From Leptotrichia sp. oral taxon 847 (GTDB taxonomy: Bacteria; Fusobacteriota; Fusobacteriia; Fusobacteriales; Leptotrichiaceae), in NCBI RefSeq assembly GCF_001553645.1, contig NZ_CP014231.1, forward strand, positions 124,001 through 188,000: 64,000 nucleotides of DNA, read 5' to 3'. The notes below the pieces were generated by a model. That model saw only the letters and a list, made by a program, of their open reading frames with translations. It searched no databases and was not told where the DNA came from. The translations under genes and the position numbers were made by a program. Shown one piece after another: positions 497 through 52,818 of the stretch. Position 1 is the first letter of the stretch. Every line of letters starts with the position of its first letter.

Positions 497-546
497 TTAA
501 TAAAAATTGAAATAATAAATGGTGATTTTTTTATTTATAAGGAAAT

Positions 547-1102
547 TATACTAAACCCCATTTGAATAGCGAATACATTATAAATCTTTTTAGTAGGTTA
601 AATCTAATATTTATTTTCAAATAATTAGAAGATGGTTTAAAAATTTTAGGGGCAGAATGTTATTTTGTTTAATATTATTTTTTTATTTTTTTACATAAGG
701 GGAAAGGACCGCCATTTCCCCTTATAATCCCCACGCTCGTCTAAGCATTTTTTGGAAGCAAAGCCGAAACTCACTTCGTTCAAACAGTCGTCTTTACTCC
801 CAAAAAATCACGACACTTTTATATGGTAGTAAAATTTAAACCGTCGGAGCATTTTTATGTGCTGACAAAACTGTTTGAGCACGATTAGTGCGAGTTTTTT
901 GTCAGTGCATAAAAATGACTTGAGCCTTGCCGGGGTGCAGGGGTGCGGCGATGAGCACTTCTGCTTAAAAAAGAAAAAAATATTTTAGTAACTTTCTGGA
1001 TTGAATGAAAAACTTAAAACTAAGATTTTTTATTTGCCTCTATATTTTTTACTCTGTCATAATTAGAATAAATATTCGCTTTTTAAACGAGGGAATAGTA
1101 TA
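547..1102 (+). repeat. Small TIR element (family 2), interrupted copy
   Basis: Without the 428-bp insert and one 10-bp duplication, this is a 118-bp unit made of 547-630 joined to 1069-1102. Its ends form an imperfect inverted repeat: TATACTAAACCCC at the left, and the right end read inward is TATACTATTCCCTCG, with AGCGAATA shared further in. The unit is nearly the same as 31323-31439, which is uninterrupted. It encodes nothing. It looks like a MITE-type sequence that was itself hit by the larger element. Confidence 0.75.
631..1058 (+). mobile_element. Dispersed TIR element, copy A (nested in family-2 repeat)
   Basis: This 428-bp non-coding unit starts GATGGTTTAAAAATTTTAGG and ends in TTTACTCTGTC. 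It is flanked by a perfect 10-bp direct repeat, ATAATTAGAA, at 621-630 and 1059-1068. The interior carries an 11-bp stem (ATAAGGGGAAA/TTTCCCCTTAT) and a long second hairpin with arms CATTTTTATG/CATAAAAATG. It is much richer in G and C than its surroundings. Its right terminal repeat is more degenerate than in copies B and D. Copies B (13602-14077), C (32671-33155) and D (52308-52784) share the same internal sequence. Confidence 0.85.
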
Positions 1103-4254: not shown

Positions 4255-4560
4255 ATGAGTATGTTTGTTGTTATTTCAACTTATAAAAAAAGTTTGGACG
4301 AAATTGACAAAAAAAGAGAAGAACACTTAGCCTATGTTAAAAATTTTATTCTTTCTGGAAAATTTTTGGCTGTAGGAAGAAAAAATCCAGTAAACGGTGC
4401 TGTTATTATAGCTCACAATGTTACAAAAAATGAATTGGAAAAAATTTTTAGAAATGATCCATATTATTTAAATGGATTAGCAGAATATTCAATAACAGAA
4501 TTTAATCCCGCATCTTTTGCAAAAGGTATTAAAGAAACTTTAAAAAATTTGGAGAAATAA
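4255..4560 (+). CDS. YciI-like (YCII domain) protein
   Basis: This 101-residue protein has the ferredoxin-like YCII fold. It shows an N-terminal strand (MFVVISTY), a helix containing R-x-E-H-L-A-Y, the central 'SGKFLAVGRKNPVNGAVII' segment and a C-terminal 'DPYYLNGLAEYSITEF' segment. In family members a His (here in EEHL) and an Asp act near a small-molecule pocket, but the substrate is generally unknown. Two ATGs lie 6 bp apart; the first follows aaaggaacc. An extended -10 (TGC TAAAAT, 4217-4225) lies just upstream. It is a monocistronic gene followed by a strong hairpin. Confidence 0.75.
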   Translation: MSMFVVISTYKKSLDEIDKKREEHLAYVKNFILSGKFLAVGRKNPVNGAVIIAHNVTKNELEKIFRNDPYYLNGLAEYSITEFNPASFAKGIKETLKNLEK

Positions 4561-4572
4561 AAGAAAAAGAAA

Positions 4573-4624
4573 AAAAACATATATTATTAAATTAGTTTAA
4601 CTAATAAAATATTATATGTTTTTT
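4573..4624. terminator. Bidirectional terminator between yciI-like and esterase genes
   Basis: A hairpin with arms AAAACATATA and TATATGTTTT (bulged) is followed by T-rich sequence on both strands. It separates two convergent genes. Confidence 0.7.
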
Positions 4625-4630
4625 ATTAAT

Positions 4631-5365
4631 TTATAAAATGTGTTCCATAAAATATCTTATTTGGATTCTCCACCAAGGCCAGTCATGAGCGACATCGTAA
4701 CCCCAGTAATCAAACCAGGCAGGCACTTGCTTTTCACATAAAATTCTGTCAAGCTCCCTGTTACTAGGTAACAATTCTCCTTCCCATGCTCCTTGTCCAA
4801 TACAGATAATTATATTTTTTTGTCTGTACAAATCTAAATAAGGGTGATTCCAAGGCATATCTCCCAAGAAATCAACAACTGAGTTGTTATAAACCAAGTC
4901 ATCCATATAATCGTAAAAAAACATTCTCGCATCAAATTGTCCACTTAAAGAAATTAATGTATCAAACAAGTCTGGTCTACGAAAAAATAAAATTCCAGCG
5001 TGCGTTCCACCCATACTGCATCCCGTAACTATTATATCGCTTCTCCAGGAAATATATTGGATTCTAGGAACCATTTCATAACAAATATGTTCAAACCATC
5101 TTTCTTGCATCTCAATTCTATGTCGAGGATTGCCGTTTTTATCTGACCAGCTTTCAGTATCAATACTTCCTATACAAAAAACCTGAATTCTCCCCTGTTC
5201 GATAAAATCTGACAAGACATCTATCATTCCAAATTCTTCATATTGATTACAATTTCCATCTTGTGATGGAAATACTAAAACTGGCTTTCCAGAATAGCCA
5301 TATTTTTTAAATTCCACGTCTCTATTAAGTATAGGGCTGTATTCTCTTATGTATTCTATTTGCAT
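4631..5365 (-). CDS. Esterase D-like alpha/beta hydrolase
   Basis: This 244-residue protein matches the putative-esterase family related to esterase D and S-formylglutathione hydrolase. The nucleophile elbow GCSMGG places Ser117, and the catalytic His is probably His227 in VAHDWPWW. It has no signal peptide, so it should be cytosolic and cleave a small ester, thioester or acyl-peptide. It begins 11 bp after the stop of the ATP-grasp gene 5377-6576. Ribosome-site sequence ggagaagatgc lies at the ATG. Pairing with an ATP-grasp ligase suggests that one enzyme makes an acyl or peptide product and the other releases or transfers it. Fold confidence is high; substrate unknown. Confidence 0.8.
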   Translation of the reverse strand: MQIEYIREYSPILNRDVEFKKYGYSGKPVLVFPSQDGNCNQYEEFGMIDVLSDFIEQGRIQVFCIGSIDTESWSDKNGNPRHRIEMQERWFEHICYEMVPRIQYISWRSDIIVTGCSMGGTHAGILFFRRPDLFDTLISLSGQFDARMFFYDYMDDLVYNNSVVDFLGDMPWNHPYLDLYRQKNIIICIGQGAWEGELLPSNRELDRILCEKQVPAWFDYWGYDVAHDWPWWRIQIRYFMEHIL

Positions 5366-5376
5366 CTTCTCTCCTT

Positions 5377-6576
5377 CTATTTTCTTTCGTGCACCATTTT
5401 TTTAAATTCGTTCATTTCTTCTTCAGTCTTAAATTTAGCGGTATACATGTAATTTCCCATCGCTCCTGCAAAAATATCTGGCATTCTTTCATCCATCACA
5501 ATTTGGTTTGCATATTTTTCTTTTATTTGTTCGTGTGAATAGACATATTCTTTATTATCTCTTCTGCTTGCATAAAAGCAATAATTTTTTTCAATATCTT
5601 TATTTAAATCAGCATTTCTTATTTCATCAAAAACTACCATATCAGCCCAAATTTGATAAACATCAGTATTATTTGCATAATTATACATATCCGGCGTATA
5701 TCCACCTGCAGGACGCATATTTGTCTCAAGTCCCACATAATCACCTTTTTTACCCAAGCCTTTTTTAGCACTTTTCAATTTAAAAAATTCTAAATGAATA
5801 AATCTGCTCTTTACTCCAAATGCTTTTACTGTGGCTCTTCCTATTTCCAAAAGTTTTTCGGGCATTTCTTTTTCAACGTAATAATAGACATCCAATTCTT
5901 TGTTTACTACATCCATAATTGTCGGCTCAAAAATTCCAGTTTCAAAAATAGGCTCTCCTTTTGAGTTTACAATTGCATCGTAAGAAACTAAATCTCCTTC
6001 AATATATTCTTCCATTATATATTTTATATCTTTATTCAATCCTTTAAAAAAATCTTTTAATTCTTTTTCATTCGAAATTTTGTGAGTATCACTTGCGCCA
6101 ACGCCATTATCAGGCTTTACAATAACAGGATAACCTACTTTTTCAATAAATTTTTTAGCTTTTGCCAAAGTTGTTACCATTGAATAATCCGCTGTAGGAA
6201 TTCCCCCTTTTTTATAAGATTTTTTCATTTTCGATTTTTCTTTTATTCCTGCAACTTTATTAAATTGTATTCCTGTTGTAACATTAAAATCTGTACGAAG
6301 TCTTGAATCGTTAACTAACCAATATTCATTATTTGACTCAATCCAGTCTATTTTACCGTATTTATGGGTAAAAAAGCCCACAGCTTTCAAAACTTCATCG
6401 TAATTTTCTAATGATGAAACTTTGTAATATTCAGTTAATGCATTTTTTAATTTAGCATCCAACTCATCATAGTTAACATCGGCTATTCCTAAAACAGTCA
6501 CTCCATTTTTTTTCAGTCTATCACAAAATTCCCAGTTTGTTTTTGGAAATTGTGGCGAAATGTAAACAAAATTCAT
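5377..6576 (-). CDS. ATP-grasp carboxylate-amine/peptide ligase
   Basis: The protein has 399 residues. An N-terminal Rossmann-like part (1-105) precedes an ATP-grasp domain. Visible features are the nucleotide-binding strand VIVKPDNGVGASDT (151-164), MEEYIEGD (about 188-195), HLEFFK (261-266) and the Mg-binding ETNMRPAGG (284-292). Such enzymes activate a carboxylate as an acyl phosphate and join it to an amine. The exact substrates cannot be read. It lies 26 bp downstream of an aminotransferase and 11 bp upstream of an esterase on the same strand, and behind a peptidoglycan amidase. This context favours amino-acid or small-peptide chemistry. Confidence 0.8.
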   Translation of the reverse strand: MNFVYISPQFPKTNWEFCDRLKKNGVTVLGIADVNYDELDAKLKNALTEYYKVSSLENYDEVLKAVGFFTHKYGKIDWIESNNEYWLVNDSRLRTDFNVTTGIQFNKVAGIKEKSKMKKSYKKGGIPTADYSMVTTLAKAKKFIEKVGYPVIVKPDNGVGASDTHKISNEKELKDFFKGLNKDIKYIMEEYIEGDLVSYDAIVNSKGEPIFETGIFEPTIMDVVNKELDVYYYVEKEMPEKLLEIGRATVKAFGVKSRFIHLEFFKLKSAKKGLGKKGDYVGLETNMRPAGGYTPDMYNYANNTDVYQIWADMVVFDEIRNADLNKDIEKNYCFYASRRDNKEYVYSHEQIKEKYANQIVMDERMPDIFAGAMGNYMYTAKFKTEEEMNEFKKMVHERK

Positions 6577-6602
6577 ATTTTATTCATCTCCTTAAAAATA
6601 AT

Positions 6603-7817
6603 TTATTTATTGTTTTTATTATATTCTTCTAAGGCGTATTTTAAAATTTTCATTCCATTTTCAATCTCTATTAAATTATGTGTACAGAATGAAAATCTGG
6701 CTTCCTTTGTCCCTTTTCCAGGCGTTGTATAAAATCCGGGTCCTGGTGCAAATGACAAAGTCTGATTTTTATATCTAAACTTGGTAAGCAACCAAATTAC
6801 AAATTTTTCAATATCATCCACAGGCAATTCTGCAAACAAGTATAAAGCGCTACTAGGTTTATACGTAATCACTCCTGGAATTTTTTTTATGTTGTTATAA
6901 ATCATATCTCTTCTGACTTTATATTCCAATTTTGTGTTATCGATATAAGTGTCAAGAGTGTTAATCAAATTTGCACTTGCATACTGTTCAATCGTTGACA
7001 CAGAGAGTCTAGCCTGACAAAATTTTAGTGCTTGCGCCATAAATTCTTTGTTTTTTGAAATGATAACTCCTATTCTTGCTCCACATGCGCTATAATGTTT
7101 TGAAATACTGTCAACCAAGATGACTCTGTCTTTAATTTCCTCCATTGTCAAAAATGATTGATATTGTGCTTCAATTTCTTCGTCGTAAATAAACTGTCTA
7201 TAAACTTCGTCAGAAATTATAAATAAATTATATTTTAACGCAATTTCCTTTATCATTTCCATCTCTTTTTTCGTAAATACAATTCCTGTTGGATTTGAAG
7301 GATTAGAAAATAATATCGCTTTTGTCTTTGGTGTAATTAATTTTTCAATTTCTTCTTTTTTAGGAAGGTGATAATGATTTTCAATAACTGTTTCAATCGG
7401 AATCAATTTCGCATCAGCTGCTCTCAAAAAACTGTCATAATTTGTGTAATAAGGCTCTGGAACTAAAACTTCATCACCTGGATTACAAATAGTTTGCAGC
7501 GAAATTTGGATTGCTTCACTTCCACCTTGTGTTATTAACATTTCATCTACTGAAATATCAATTCCCGATTTTCGGTAAGCTTTTACAAATGTTTCTCTTA
7601 GTTCCAATATTCCTGCTGAATTTGCATATTTTACAATTTTTTCCTTATAATTATCCAATCCTTCAAAAAAAGTATCAGGTGTTTCCACATCAGGCTGACC
7701 AATATGAAATTGATAAACTTTCACTCCTTGTTTTTTGGCTTCATCAATGTAAGGAACAAGTTTTCTAATCGGTGAATAGTGCATATTTTGTACTCTATCT
7801 GAAAATCTTTCTTTCAT
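6603..7817 (-). CDS. PLP-dependent class I/II aminotransferase
   Basis: This 404-residue fold-type I aminotransferase should transfer an amino group between an amino acid and a 2-oxo acid. Family motifs are FHIGQPD near 37-43, NPSNPTG (172-178), SDEVY with Asp203, and the PLP Schiff-base lysine Lys240 in SISKHYSACGARIG. A C-terminal Arg in ARFSFC should bind the substrate carboxylate. The sequence is nearest to aspartate/aromatic-type aminotransferases, but the specific substrate is not readable. It starts 29 bp after the amidase stop and leads into the ATP-grasp and esterase genes, so it probably belongs to one four-gene transcript. Confidence 0.85.
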   Translation of the reverse strand: MKERFSDRVQNMHYSPIRKLVPYIDEAKKQGVKVYQFHIGQPDVETPDTFFEGLDNYKEKIVKYANSAGILELRETFVKAYRKSGIDISVDEMLITQGGSEAIQISLQTICNPGDEVLVPEPYYTNYDSFLRAADAKLIPIETVIENHYHLPKKEEIEKLITPKTKAILFSNPSNPTGIVFTKKEMEMIKEIALKYNLFIISDEVYRQFIYDEEIEAQYQSFLTMEEIKDRVILVDSISKHYSACGARIGVIISKNKEFMAQALKFCQARLSVSTIEQYASANLINTLDTYIDNTKLEYKVRRDMIYNNIKKIPGVITYKPSSALYLFAELPVDDIEKFVIWLLTKFRYKNQTLSFAPGPGFYTTPGKGTKEARFSFCTHNLIEIENGMKILKYALEEYNKNNK

Positions 7818-13384: not shown

Positions 13385-13570
13385 GATAATGTAAAAATTT
13401 TAAGGGCAAGTTTTAATTTCAATATTTTCTAATTTATTTTTGCTCACAAGATATTATTTTGTTTACTATAAGTTTTATATCTTTGTACATAAGGGGAAAA
13501 AAACGCCATTTTCCCCTTATAATTTCCAAACTCATCTAAGTATTCTTTATATAACAGAAAAATTTAAACC
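13385..13570 (+). repeat. Degenerate left-half relic of the dispersed element (copy E)
   Basis: From GATAATGTAAAAATTTTAAG to about CTCATCTAAG it follows the left half of copies A-D, including the AAGGGGAAA/TTTCCCCTT stem. It then jumps to AAATTTAAACCG and stops matching. It is in opposite orientation to the adjacent copy B, so the two form an inverted pair. Confidence 0.65.
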
Positions 13571-13601
13571 GTATCTTAATCCTATTGTTTCCTTATCCTA
13601 T

Positions 13602-14077
13602 GACAGAGTAAAATATTTAGGGGAAATAAAAACTTCTATTTTAAGTTTCTTATTCAATCCAGAAAGTTACTAAAATAACAATGTTTTCCTATTCCTTTTT
13701 TAAGCAGAAGTGCTCATCGCCGCACCCCTGCACCCCGGCTAGTCTTCGTCATTTTTATGCACTGCCAAAAAACTCGCACTAATCGTGCTCAAACAGTTTT
13801 GTCAGCACATAAAAATGCTCCGACGGTTTAAAATTCTAATATTATACAAAAGGTGTCGTGATTTTTTTGGAGTAAAGACGACTGTCTGAACGAAGTGAGT
13901 TTCGGCTTTGCTTCAAAAAAATGCTTAGACGAGCGTGGGGATTATAAGGGGAAATGGCGGTCCTTTCCCCTTATGTAAAAAAATAAAAAACTATACTAAA
14001 CAAAATAACATTTTGTAATCGAGAATAACTTAAAAAATTTAAAATTAAAAATCTGCCACTAAAATTTTTAAACCATC
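13602..14077 (-). mobile_element. Dispersed TIR element, copy B
   Basis: This 476-bp non-coding unit lies in minus orientation between argH and the CNNM gene. Perfect 10-bp direct repeats CTTATCCTAT flank it at 13592-13601 and 14078-14087. Its two ends read inward as GATGGTTTAAAAATTTTAGT and GACAGAGTAAAATATTTAGG, an imperfect terminal inverted repeat. It belongs with copy C to a subfamily that has CGAAGACTA just after the large hairpin, where A and D have CTTGAGCCTT. Its right edge lies only 30 bp before the downstream gene's -10. Confidence 0.85.
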
Positions 14078-14114
14078 CTTATCCTATTGTTTCCTTTTTT
14101 TATTTAAAAAAATA

Positions 14115-14123
14115 TGCTATAAT
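14115..14123 (+). promoter_or_regulatory. Extended -10 promoter element of the CNNM/CBS gene
   Basis: TGC-TATAAT lies 35 bp before the start codon. The -35 position (about 14095-14100) is a T-run just outside the target duplication of copy B, so the insertion defines the upstream border of this promoter. Confidence 0.6.
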
Positions 14124-14157: not shown

Positions 14158-15513
14158 ATGTCCGAGGGCAACTTATTATTACAAATAGTAATAATAATTA
14201 TTTTAACTGGAATTAATGCCTTTTTTTCCGCTGCGGAAATGTCCATCGTTTCAGTTAATAAAAATAAAATAAAAATTTTAATTGAAGAAGGAAATAAAAA
14301 AGCAATATTATTAAATAATTTACTCAATGAACCAAGTAAATTTTTATCAACAATTCAAGTGGGAATAACTCTTGCAAGTTTTTTTGCTTCTGCATCAGCT
14401 GCAACTGGTTTATCGCATTATTTTTCTGACTTTTTAAAAAAATTTAATGTTCCGTATACTAGCCAGCTTTCTATGATTCTAATGACTTTTTTGCTTTCTT
14501 ACATAACTCTTGTTTTTGGAGAGCTTATTCCAAAGCGAATTGCACTTAGAGATTCCGAAAAAATCTCACTTCGCACTATCGGTGTGATTGTCTTTGTCTC
14601 AAAAATATTTTCACCATTTGTGAAATTTTTGACACTGTCAACAAATTTAGTTTTGACTATTTTGAGAATGAAAGAAGATAATATTGAAGAAAAGGTTTCT
14701 AAAGAAGAACTCCGTTCGCTTGTGGAAGTTGGACAGGAACACGGTGTAATTAATGAAGCTGAAAAAGAGATGATAGAAAATATAATTGTGTTTGACGAAA
14801 AAATTGCGCGGGAAATTATGATTCCAAGAACAAAAGTTTTTTTGGTTGACAAGAATATTTCAATTCAGAAATTGTTTGAAAATAAAGAAATTGAGCGTTA
14901 TTCAAGAATTCCAGTCTATGAAGAAGAAGCTGACAATATCATAGGTGTTTTAATGACAAAGGATTTGATGATTGAAGCATACAAAAAAGGATTTGACAAC
15001 GTAAATATTGCAAATTTGGTGCAAGAAGCCTACTTTGTACCGGAAACTAAAAATGTGAATGAATTATTTAACGAAATGCAGTCTGAAAAAAAACATATTG
15101 CTATTTTAATTGATGAATACGGTGGTTTTTCGGGAATCGTTACTCTGGAAGACTTGATTGAAGAAGTTATGGGAAATATATCCGATGAATTTGATGATGA
15201 AGACTTAACAATAACAAAATTGCCATTTTCAAAAAACAAATATTTAGTAAACGGGGAAATTTCCTTGAATGACTTAAACGATAACTTTCATTTTAATTTA
15301 GAATCTAAATATTATGACACATTAAATGGACTTTTAATTGAAAAGCTGGGGTATATTCCAGAAGATTCAGAAAATATAGAGCCAATACAAATTGACAACA
15401 TTGTCTTTAAACCACAAAAAGTTAAAAATAAAAAAATTGAAAAAATCATTATGACTTTGAATAACAAACAAAAAAATGAAAAACAAGAAGAAGAGAAAAA
15501 AGAAAATGAGTAA
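14158..15513 (+). CDS. CNNM/CBS/CorC_HlyC-domain membrane protein (hemolysin-like)
   Basis: This 451-residue inner-membrane protein has a CNNM (DUF21) domain with about four membrane helices (1-190). It shows INAFFSAAEMS and GELIPKRIALR, the family's core motif. Two CBS domains follow (about 205-340; 'IMIPRTKVFLVD' and 'IAILIDEYGGFSGIVTLEDLIEEV'). A CorC_HlyC domain (about 355-430) and a Lys/Glu tail end the protein. Relatives act as Na+/Mg2+ exporters or in Mg/Co resistance; the old 'hemolysin' label is weakly founded. A strong taggagg ribosome site precedes the ATG. It is monocistronic, with a terminator at 15598-15635. Confidence 0.88.
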   Translation: MSEGNLLLQIVIIIILTGINAFFSAAEMSIVSVNKNKIKILIEEGNKKAILLNNLLNEPSKFLSTIQVGITLASFFASASAATGLSHYFSDFLKKFNVPYTSQLSMILMTFLLSYITLVFGELIPKRIALRDSEKISLRTIGVIVFVSKIFSPFVKFLTLSTNLVLTILRMKEDNIEEKVSKEELRSLVEVGQEHGVINEAEKEMIENIIVFDEKIAREIMIPRTKVFLVDKNISIQKLFENKEIERYSRIPVYEEEADNIIGVLMTKDLMIEAYKKGFDNVNIANLVQEAYFVPETKNVNELFNEMQSEKKHIAILIDEYGGFSGIVTLEDLIEEVMGNISDEFDDEDLTITKLPFSKNKYLVNGEISLNDLNDNFHFNLESKYYDTLNGLLIEKLGYIPEDSENIEPIQIDNIVFKPQKVKNKKIEKIIMTLNNKQKNEKQEEEKKENE

Positions 15514-31250: not shown

Positions 31251-31322
31251 GTAAGTATTTTACATAAAGTCTTGGCTTTCTCTCAGTAAAAAATATAATT
31301 CTTATTCTCTAAAAATGAAATT

Positions 31323-31439
31323 TATACTAAACCCCATTTGAATAACGGATACATTGTAAATCTTTTTATCAAATTAAACCTGATATTTATTCTTAAATAA
31401 TTAAAATAAATATTCACTTTTTAAACGGGGAATATTATT
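31323..31439 (+). repeat. Small TIR element (family 2), uninterrupted copy
   Basis: This 117-bp unit closely matches the two halves that flank copy A at 547-630 and 1069-1102, including TATACTAAACCCCATTTGAA at the left. At the point where copy A is inserted it reads straight through (AAATAATTAAAATAAATATT). It is therefore a natural empty-site counterpart. Confidence 0.75.
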
Positions 31440-32647: not shown

Positions 32648-32670
32648 ATTTTTTGTTTTTTTCTGGATTG

Positions 32671-33155
32671 GAGTAAAATATTTAGGGGAAAATAAAAAGT
32701 TCTATTTATAAAAACTTCCATTTCCATTTTAAGTTTCTTAATTTAACTCACAAAGATACTAAAAATAATTTTTTCTTTTTTAAGCAGAAGTGCTCATCGC
32801 CGCACCCCTGCACCCCGGCTAGTCTTCGTCATTTTTATGCACTGCCAAAAAACTCGCACTAATCGTGCTCAAACAGTTTTGTCAGCACATAAAAACGCTT
32901 CGACGGTTTAAATTTTACTACCATATAAAAGTGTCGTGATTTTTTAGAAGTAAAGACGACTGTTTGAACGTAGTGAGTTTCGGCTTTACTTTCAAAAAAT
33001 TCTTAGACGAGCGTGGGGATTATAAGGGGAAATGGCGGCCCTTTCCCCTTATGTAAAAAAATAAAAGACTATACTAAACAAAATGACATGTTGTAATCAA
33101 GAATAAATCAAAAAATTTGGAATTTAAAATATGCCCTTAAAATTTTTACACCATC
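32671..33155 (-). mobile_element. Dispersed TIR element, copy C (no target duplication seen)
   Basis: This copy of about 485 bp lies between rplU and pfkA. Its interior is nearly identical to copy B, including the large hairpin and the CGAAGACTA subfamily marker. One end is intact (ACACCATC). The other reads TGGATTGGAGTAAAATATTT, where copies B and D have GACAGAGTAAAAT, and no 10-bp direct repeat is found. The copy is older or has been rearranged at that end. It contributes the upstream borders of both flanking promoters. Confidence 0.75.
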
Positions 33156-51721: not shown

Positions 51722-52219
51722 TTATTCCATTTCTGTCGCTTCCATAAATATTTTACCATTTGAATTTAAAAATACAAGTTTTTGTATTTTTGTATCGTAA
51801 GCATAGATCATAGTACTATCGCCATCTTCTTTTACAAGTGCAAAATTTTTATAGACTTTTAATCTTTTTGTATCTTTTTTTGCTTCAGTATTCTGACCAT
51901 CTTCACCAAAATCGTAATCTACAACATAATATCCCTTTGCATCTTTTTTTATTTCAAATTCATCAGAAGTATCAGTATATCCAAATTTTTTATTCAGAAA
52001 TTTATCTTCATGAAGTTTTCCATCAGTTGTAAAATTACGGTTTTCTCCATCACCGTAAGAAGATTTTAGTTCCACTTCATTTTTTTTATTTTTATCTACT
52101 TTAGAAGAATAATCTTTTATTTTATTATTTTTACTTTGTTTTCCATTCCCACAAGCTATTGCACTTATCAAAATTGCTGAAATAAAAAACATAATTCCAA
52201 TTTTTCTAATTTTTTTCAT
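51722..52219 (-). CDS. Small lipoprotein, unknown function
   Basis: This 165-residue predicted lipoprotein has signal MKKIRKIGIMFFISAILISA and lipobox SAIAC, so the mature protein starts at Cys23. After a Lys/Asn/Ser linker the globular part has alternating strands ('FEIKKDAKGYYVVDYDF', 'KRLKVYKNFALVKEDGDSTMIYAYDT'), like a small beta-sheet domain. No family is recognised. Element copy D lies upstream, with its edge about 90 bp from the start codon. Confidence 0.6.
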   Translation of the reverse strand: MKKIRKIGIMFFISAILISAIACGNGKQSKNNKIKDYSSKVDKNKKNEVELKSSYGDGENRNFTTDGKLHEDKFLNKKFGYTDTSDEFEIKKDAKGYYVVDYDFGEDGQNTEAKKDTKRLKVYKNFALVKEDGDSTMIYAYDTKIQKLVFLNSNGKIFMEATEME

Positions 52220-52307
52220 GTTTTTTCACTTCCAATCTTAAATTTTTTTAATTTTCAGTTTTATTATACCATATAAATAGAAAAATTAAAAATTTTTAAA
52301 CAATAAT

Positions 52308-52784
52308 GATGGTTTAAAAATTTTAGGGGCAGATTTTTAATTTTAAATTTTTTAAGTTATTCTCGATTACAAGATGTTATTTTGTTTAGTATAGTTTTTT
52401 ATTTTTTTACATAAGGGGAAAGGACCGCCATTTCCCCTTATAATCCCCACGCTCGTCTAAGCATTTTTTTGAAGCAAAGCCGAAACTCACTTCGTTCAGA
52501 CAGTCGTCTTTACTCCAAAAAAATCACGACACCTTTTGTATAATATTAGAATTTTAAACCGTCGGAGCATTTTTATGTGCTGACAAAACTGTTTGAGCAC
52601 GATTAGTGCGAGTTTTTTGGCAGTGCATAAAAATGTCTTGAGCCTTGCCGGGGTGCAGGGGTGCGGCGATGAGCACTTCTGCTTAAAAAAGGAATAGAAA
52701 AAAATTGTTATTTTAGTAACTTTCTGGATTGAATAAGAAACTTAAAATAGAAGTTTTTATTTCCCCTAAATATTTTACTCTGTC
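52308..52784 (+). mobile_element. Dispersed TIR element, copy D (best-preserved)
   Basis: This 477-bp unit is flanked by perfect 10-bp repeats AAACAATAAT at 52298-52307 and 52785-52794. Its ends read inward as GATGGTTTAAAAATTTTAGG and GACAGAGTAAAATATTTAGG, 17 of 25 aligned positions identical over the terminal 25. Inside are a perfect 11-bp hairpin (52411-52441) and a large hairpin (52568-52635). A GC-rich tail contains GGGGTGCAGGGGTGCGGCG. It has no open frame of note. It lies between nrdF (3' side) and the lipoprotein gene (5' side). Confidence 0.88.
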
Positions 52785-52818
52785 AAACAATAATTTTAAT
52801 ACTTTTTTATTTTTAGAA

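Follow-up and report, generated by a model that had tools for sequence, protein, structure and literature searches.

A family of MITEs with ISLre2-type ends is dispersed over the genome of Leptotrichia sp. oral taxon 847 (2.19 Mb, one contig), and its copies were very probably inserted in trans by an ISLre2 (p-MULT 3) transposase upstream of promoters, with formation of 10-bp target duplications. Four copies, designated A to D, lie in the window, that is, the whole 64,000-nucleotide stretch of DNA that was analysed (genome positions 124001-188000). The features of a MITE were found in these elements: they are short (428-489 bp in the window and ~470 bp genome-wide), they have no transposase gene, and in the window copies no ORF reaches 120 aa, their inverted repeats are those of an autonomous element, and they show target duplications as well as empty sites. 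As read from the DNA itself, the evidence is made up of the ends, the duplications, the empty sites, the spacing to predicted promoters and the lack of a detectable transposase gene.

In the window, copies A, B and D have in common the terminal bases GACAGAG... and ...CCATC, which are directly abutted by a perfect 10-bp repeat proper to each copy (Table 1). The first-pass annotation had described such repeats at identical borders and they are indeed present at these positions. By chance, ATAATTAGAA, CTTATCCTAT and AAACAATAAT are expected to give 1.0, 0.16 and 1.9 matches, respectively, in 64 kb. Single 10-mers may thus recur by chance, yet their placement at both borders is non-random because identical 10-mers stand exactly at both borders in 32 of the 47 two-ended copies of the genome, whereas none of the 2162 mismatched pairings (left 10-mer of one copy against right 10-mer of another) match. 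The duplication of copy B is readable as 10 or 11 bp since the last C of the element also stands before the left repeat. Moreover, the left flank of B is an older truncated copy, so that its empty site is not cleanly readable. Copy A is inserted immediately beside one copy of a second repeat family, TACTAAACCCCATTTGAATAGCGAAT..., which is found at window positions 526-630 and 31302-31406 with 80% identity between both; similar stretches are present in congeners.

Table 1. MITE copies and associated features in the window (window coordinates)
Feature	Position	Strand	Remarks
Copy A duplication ATAATTAGAA	621..630	.	left side
MITE copy A, 428 bp	631..1058	-	left end 1 base off the 24-bp ISLre2 inverted repeat
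Copy A duplication ATAATTAGAA	1059..1068	.	right side
Older truncated relative, left flank of B	13385..13548	-	81% match, query 315-469; end-like GATAATGTAAAAATTTTAAGG at 13385
Copy B left duplication CTTATCCTAT	13592..13601	.	
MITE copy B, 476 bp	13602..14077	+	terminal repeats GACAGAGTAAAATATTTAGGGG / GATGGTTTAAAAATTTTAG; 98% identity to copy D
Module M1 in copy B	13698..13826	+	two-hairpin fold, z = -3.6 (L001:1597-1725)
Module M2 in copy B, inverted to M1	13854..13974	-	two-hairpin fold, z = -4.5 (L001:1753-1873)
Copy B right duplication CTTATCCTAT	14078..14087	.	
Promoter-like pair facing B	14095..14123	+	9/12, offset 9, spacer 15; -10 TATAAT at 14118-14123; upstream of gene at 14158
MITE copy C	32667..33155	+	left end decayed, no target duplication in flanks; same place empty in G005, G007
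Promoter-like pair facing D	52263..52290	-	9/12, offset 7, spacer 16; upstream of lipoprotein gene 51722-52219
Copy D duplication AAACAATAAT	52298..52307	.	once at empty site in G005, G007
MITE copy D, 477 bp	52308..52784	-	
Copy D duplication AAACAATAAT	52785..52794	.	

Genome-wide, a 25-base core probe revealed 63 copies, with an exact match in 56, and its reversed control pattern gave 0 matches in the genome. Copies were located by pattern and similarity searches, and those without the core are under-counted. A derivative of ~180 bp with ISLre2-like ends and no core was observed (L108, 3230 to ~3400), and the family therefore also holds internal-deletion forms missed by the core probe. Both ends are kept in 47 of the 63 copies. 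If the right border may shift by 1 bp, an exact duplication is present in 37 of these 47, with a length of 10 bp in 31 cases, 9 bp in 2 and an apparent 11-12 bp in 4, the latter being due to chance base matches at the border. The 10 two-ended copies that carry no duplication include copy C; given that no cross-copy pairing matches, no reciprocal exchange is visible among them.

A search with the flanking genes identified other Leptotrichia genomes as close relatives (81% and 80% identity), and the nearest ones by NrdB among those searched are G005 and G007 (99% identity). Copy D is absent from the syntenic stretches of both, in which the flanks overlap by exactly its 10-mer. In parallel, a query of 13 joined flanks, for which a gapless alignment over the junction was required, allowed identifying six further empty sites, at positions 110759 (G005, G003), 269425, 444995, 455752 (G005, G007), 679669 and 1312995 of the own genome; the other joined flanks gave no clean alignment over the junction. 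This amounts to 7 loci with gapless empty sites in sister species, D included. At D, 110759, 269425, 444995 and 1312995, one relative or more has a single 10-mer identical to the own one, and at 455752 and 679669 it is off by 1-2 bases. The absence of these 7 insertions in sister species suggests that the activity began after these species had separated, or at any rate continued beyond that point. Just beyond the 3' end of nrdB, an ISLre2 copy of G001 (L146, 2330-3627) is found as well as MITE copy D, at differing exact positions. The first-pass annotation had proposed that the elements moved by transposition with a 10-bp target duplication and were not the product of simple expansion, and that the flanks of all genomic copies and the empty sites in relatives should tell. 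Most complete copies do carry 10-bp repeats, single 10-mers are present in sister species, and both results uphold the proposal.

The two ends of the MITE are unequal: one reads GACAGAGTAAAATATTTAGGGG (or ...TAGTTAGGGG), and the opposite end reads GATGGTTTAAAAATTTTAGGGG. In congener genomes, a pattern search found facing GACAGAGTAAAAAATATAGGG pairs ~1.5 kb apart. The gene between them encodes up to 447 aa, and its product scores 241-263 bits against NF033529, the NCBIfam ISLre2 transposase equivalog (cut-off 200 bits), and also matches Pfam UPF0236; many of these transposase copies are broken. All 24 bases of the ISLre2 inverted repeat are exactly present in an own copy (L064), and GATGGTTTAAAAATTTTAGGGG is a poorer match to the ISLre2 end than the opposite end. 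Beyond the terminal 22-26 bases, no similarity was seen by eye between the MITE and the ISLre2 elements. Such a likeness confined to the ends is common among MITEs. ISLre2 corresponds to p-MULT 3, a group related to eukaryotic Mutator for which circular intermediates were reported, and ISLbu1 of Leptotrichia buccalis, which has perfect 24-bp repeats, is the sole member of the ISLre2 family reported in both orientations (PMC3942029). The 1.5-kb elements of G001 share its properties and probably represent ISLbu1.

The duplications of p-MULT 3/ISLre2 elements were reported to be 8 or 9 bp long (PMC3942029). In the congeners, ISLre2 copies were found with duplications of 10 bp (L140, L145, L147), 9 bp (L134, L137) or 10 bp with one mismatch (L138), and some copies have none. 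The MITE duplications are mostly of 10 bp and some of 9 bp, and with 9-10 bp for the Leptotrichia ISLre2 elements, a 10-bp duplication may be usual in the genus. Other elements with such ends were observed in G003. One of them (L147, 480-1447, contig C4) is 968 bp long and is bounded by perfect ISLre2 inverted repeats, and its flanks carry the 10-bp sequence AGTCATATAG as an exact duplication; it contains a small LprI-domain lipoprotein gene and a mere transposase remnant and is thus a passenger-carrying derivative. In another one (L139, 521-3594), ISLre2-type ends stand 3.07 kb apart around two unrelated genes, one with MORN-like repeats as judged by eye, and no target duplication is present.

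Neither the ISLre2 transposase protein nor PF06782 gave a match in the own genome or in G005, while both match several congeners. The MITE copies are consequently orphaned, and the enzyme that would have mobilised the family either has been lost since then or came from outside. Several candidates for the transposase were rejected. No match to DDE_Tnp_1 (PF01609, IS4/IS5-like) exists in the genome. An AAA-ATPase-like gene of G005 and G011 turned out to be a fusion in which both partners, a PF09820 gene and a MITE, are truncated, and the regions of isolated end-like sites contain ordinary genes and short internal-deletion derivatives but no ISLre2 transposase. At the fusions (L123, ~4310-6023; L124, ~5390-7110), the 3' end of the PF09820 gene passes directly into the MITE core, and the gene stops early, without the PDDEXK_9 part present in a full-length relative. 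In G011, an ISAs1-like element starts exactly 10 bases past the MITE end.

The reported insertion point of ISLre2 elements lies 15-17 bp upstream of the -35 box of a sigma-A promoter (PMC3942029). For the 37 copies with duplications, TTGACA-N(16-18)-TATAAT was scored at every offset from the duplication, the promoters being sequence predictions. One sharp peak was observed at offset 7, which places the predicted -35 box 17 bp from the element end, a spacing of the ISLre2 type. At this offset, a score of at least 9/12 is reached in 25 of the 37 copies, compared with a mean of 0.74 at offsets 20-119, and a score of at least 10/12 in 17 copies against a background of 0.15. The two flanks share the 9/12 signal about evenly (right, 14 copies; left, 13 copies), which agrees with what was described for ISLbu1. 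With offsets 5-9 and spacers 15-19, every one of the 37 copies scores 8/12 or more on one or both sides, a looser figure that means less because control windows of the same size give 8-19 of 37. No insertion point falls within an ORF of ≥120 aa, and convergent ORFs flank only 2 of 36 sites. Of 6 autonomous congener copies examined, 4 score at least 9 near offset 7 on one side. In the window, the promoter-like pair of copy A has a weak score of 8.

Every MITE holds two modules, M1 and M2, that are inverted to one another. They follow a shared plan made of a short hairpin whose loop is conserved (mostly CGCC), a GCTAGTC/GCTCGTC linker and a long hairpin closed near CGAC. In the short hairpin, at least 8 of 9 Watson-Crick pairs are formed in 42 of 71 distinct segments compared with 16 of 1420 shuffled ones, and the pairing is kept while the stem sequence varies. 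Element matches were found in all 12 other Leptotrichia genomes searched, although few in some, and 5 of the 12 have no ISLre2-type ends with at most 1 mismatch, which indicates that the modules have another spreading route as well. The inverted pair of genus-wide structured repeats is probably captured cargo. Rfam gave no hit at gathering thresholds, with a best E of 0.9 at relaxed ones. The possibility that the modules are the ends of an IS200-like element was rejected, since the matches at Y1_Tnp loci have 4 mismatches and fall inside tnpA/tnpB coding sequence. Likewise, no RAYT transposase flanked by modules, as in REP/REPIN systems, was found, and Y1 matches are missing from two genomes rich in modules. 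Two M2 modules, in L231 (G008) and L251 (G011), have a much longer insert in the second hairpin, within its inner loop.

Other explanations were considered for this set of copies. The first-pass annotation had hinted at an IS4-type transposase, while marking the family as unassignable. Duplication length alone would be compatible with some IS4 groups, and hence with ownership by an IS4-type or other DDE_Tnp_1 enzyme making 10-bp duplications. The hint was not supported, given that PF01609 is without a match in the genome, that the MITE ends are those of ISLre2 elements and that a fixed promoter spacing is the reported ISLre2 habit (PMC3942029), which leaves such an owner very improbable. Spread by recombination or by duplication of larger segments could account for the 10 complete copies that have no duplication. 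On the contrary, each copy has its own flanks and its own 10-mer and the empty sites are gapless, so that this possibility is practically nil, and for the copies with duplications it is already refuted.

It could also be that selection maintains the element because it has a regulatory or RNA-coding role, such as that of a promoter insulator, a terminator or a small RNA, and that transposition accounted for its initial spread only. The near-uniform core (identical to the 25-nt probe in 56 of the 63 copies), module folds far below shuffled energies, the same short hairpin formed from differing stems and the location of copies just upstream of predicted promoters all speak in favor of this. Nevertheless, recent amplification by itself would preserve core identity, the insertions tested are absent in sister species and Rfam contains no matching family, which makes selection an unlikely explanation.

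Insertion of an ISLre2-type MITE in trans is thus the favored reading. An ISLre2-family Mutator-like DDE transposase, supplied in trans, would recognise the MITE ends and would cut the target with a stagger of ~10 bp, the outer edge of the site lying typically 7 bp from the -35 box. The element end would thereby come to lie 17 bp from this box, and repair of the gaps would generate the 10-bp duplication. The identity of the enzyme and the repair step are proposed by analogy with the biology of the family. Several points count against this reading, namely the lack of a transposase in the genome, the poorer match of one end, the 10 bp compared with the reported 8-9 bp, and the complete copies without duplication.

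The family provides numerous clean cases of promoter-directed insertion by a bacterial transposase of the Mutator-like type, with 37 scars and 7 sites empty in sisters. By comparison of orthologous genes that have or lack the element, it can be tested how targets are chosen and what an upstream insertion does to a promoter. It also represents a MITE family that outlives its transposase within one genome, and it brings to light a structured genus-wide repeat. In the literature searched, which covers few subscription journals, no description of an ISLre2-derived MITE or of this repeat in Leptotrichia was found. The departures from the known ISLre2 kind that are worth checking are the 10-bp instead of 8-9-bp duplications and the structured cargo.

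Compared with known systems, the MITE resembles ISLbu1 in its inverted-repeat sequence type, in its genus and in its insertion upstream of promoters in both orientations (PMC3942029), but it differs in that it has no transposase gene, its inner sequence is another one, its two ends are unequal and its duplications mostly measure 10 bp. Like bacterial MITEs in general, it is short and geneless, has inverted repeats and duplications, occurs in many copies and would depend on a transposase in trans; unlike them, it would use a Mutator-like enzyme with promoter-fixed targeting and carries structured repeats as cargo. The interior modules recall REP/REPIN sequences (PMC3733652) as abundant palindromic repeats that are paired inverted, but they are longer, at ~120 nt versus 20-40 bp, and were not found to flank any IS200-like transposase. 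Plant Pack-MULEs are likewise non-autonomous Mutator-like elements that contain captured sequence and insert near the 5' ends of genes (PMC3942029). The parallel is an analogy only, since the cargo consists of structured repeats and not of gene fragments and the enzyme would be a bacterial ISLre2 one. A bolder and rather doubtful extension of it would see in the family a bacterial Pack-MULE analogue that sets inverted structured repeats ~17 bp upstream of dozens of promoters, maybe insulating or tuning transcription, with modules that form a new genus-wide class having its own means of spreading.
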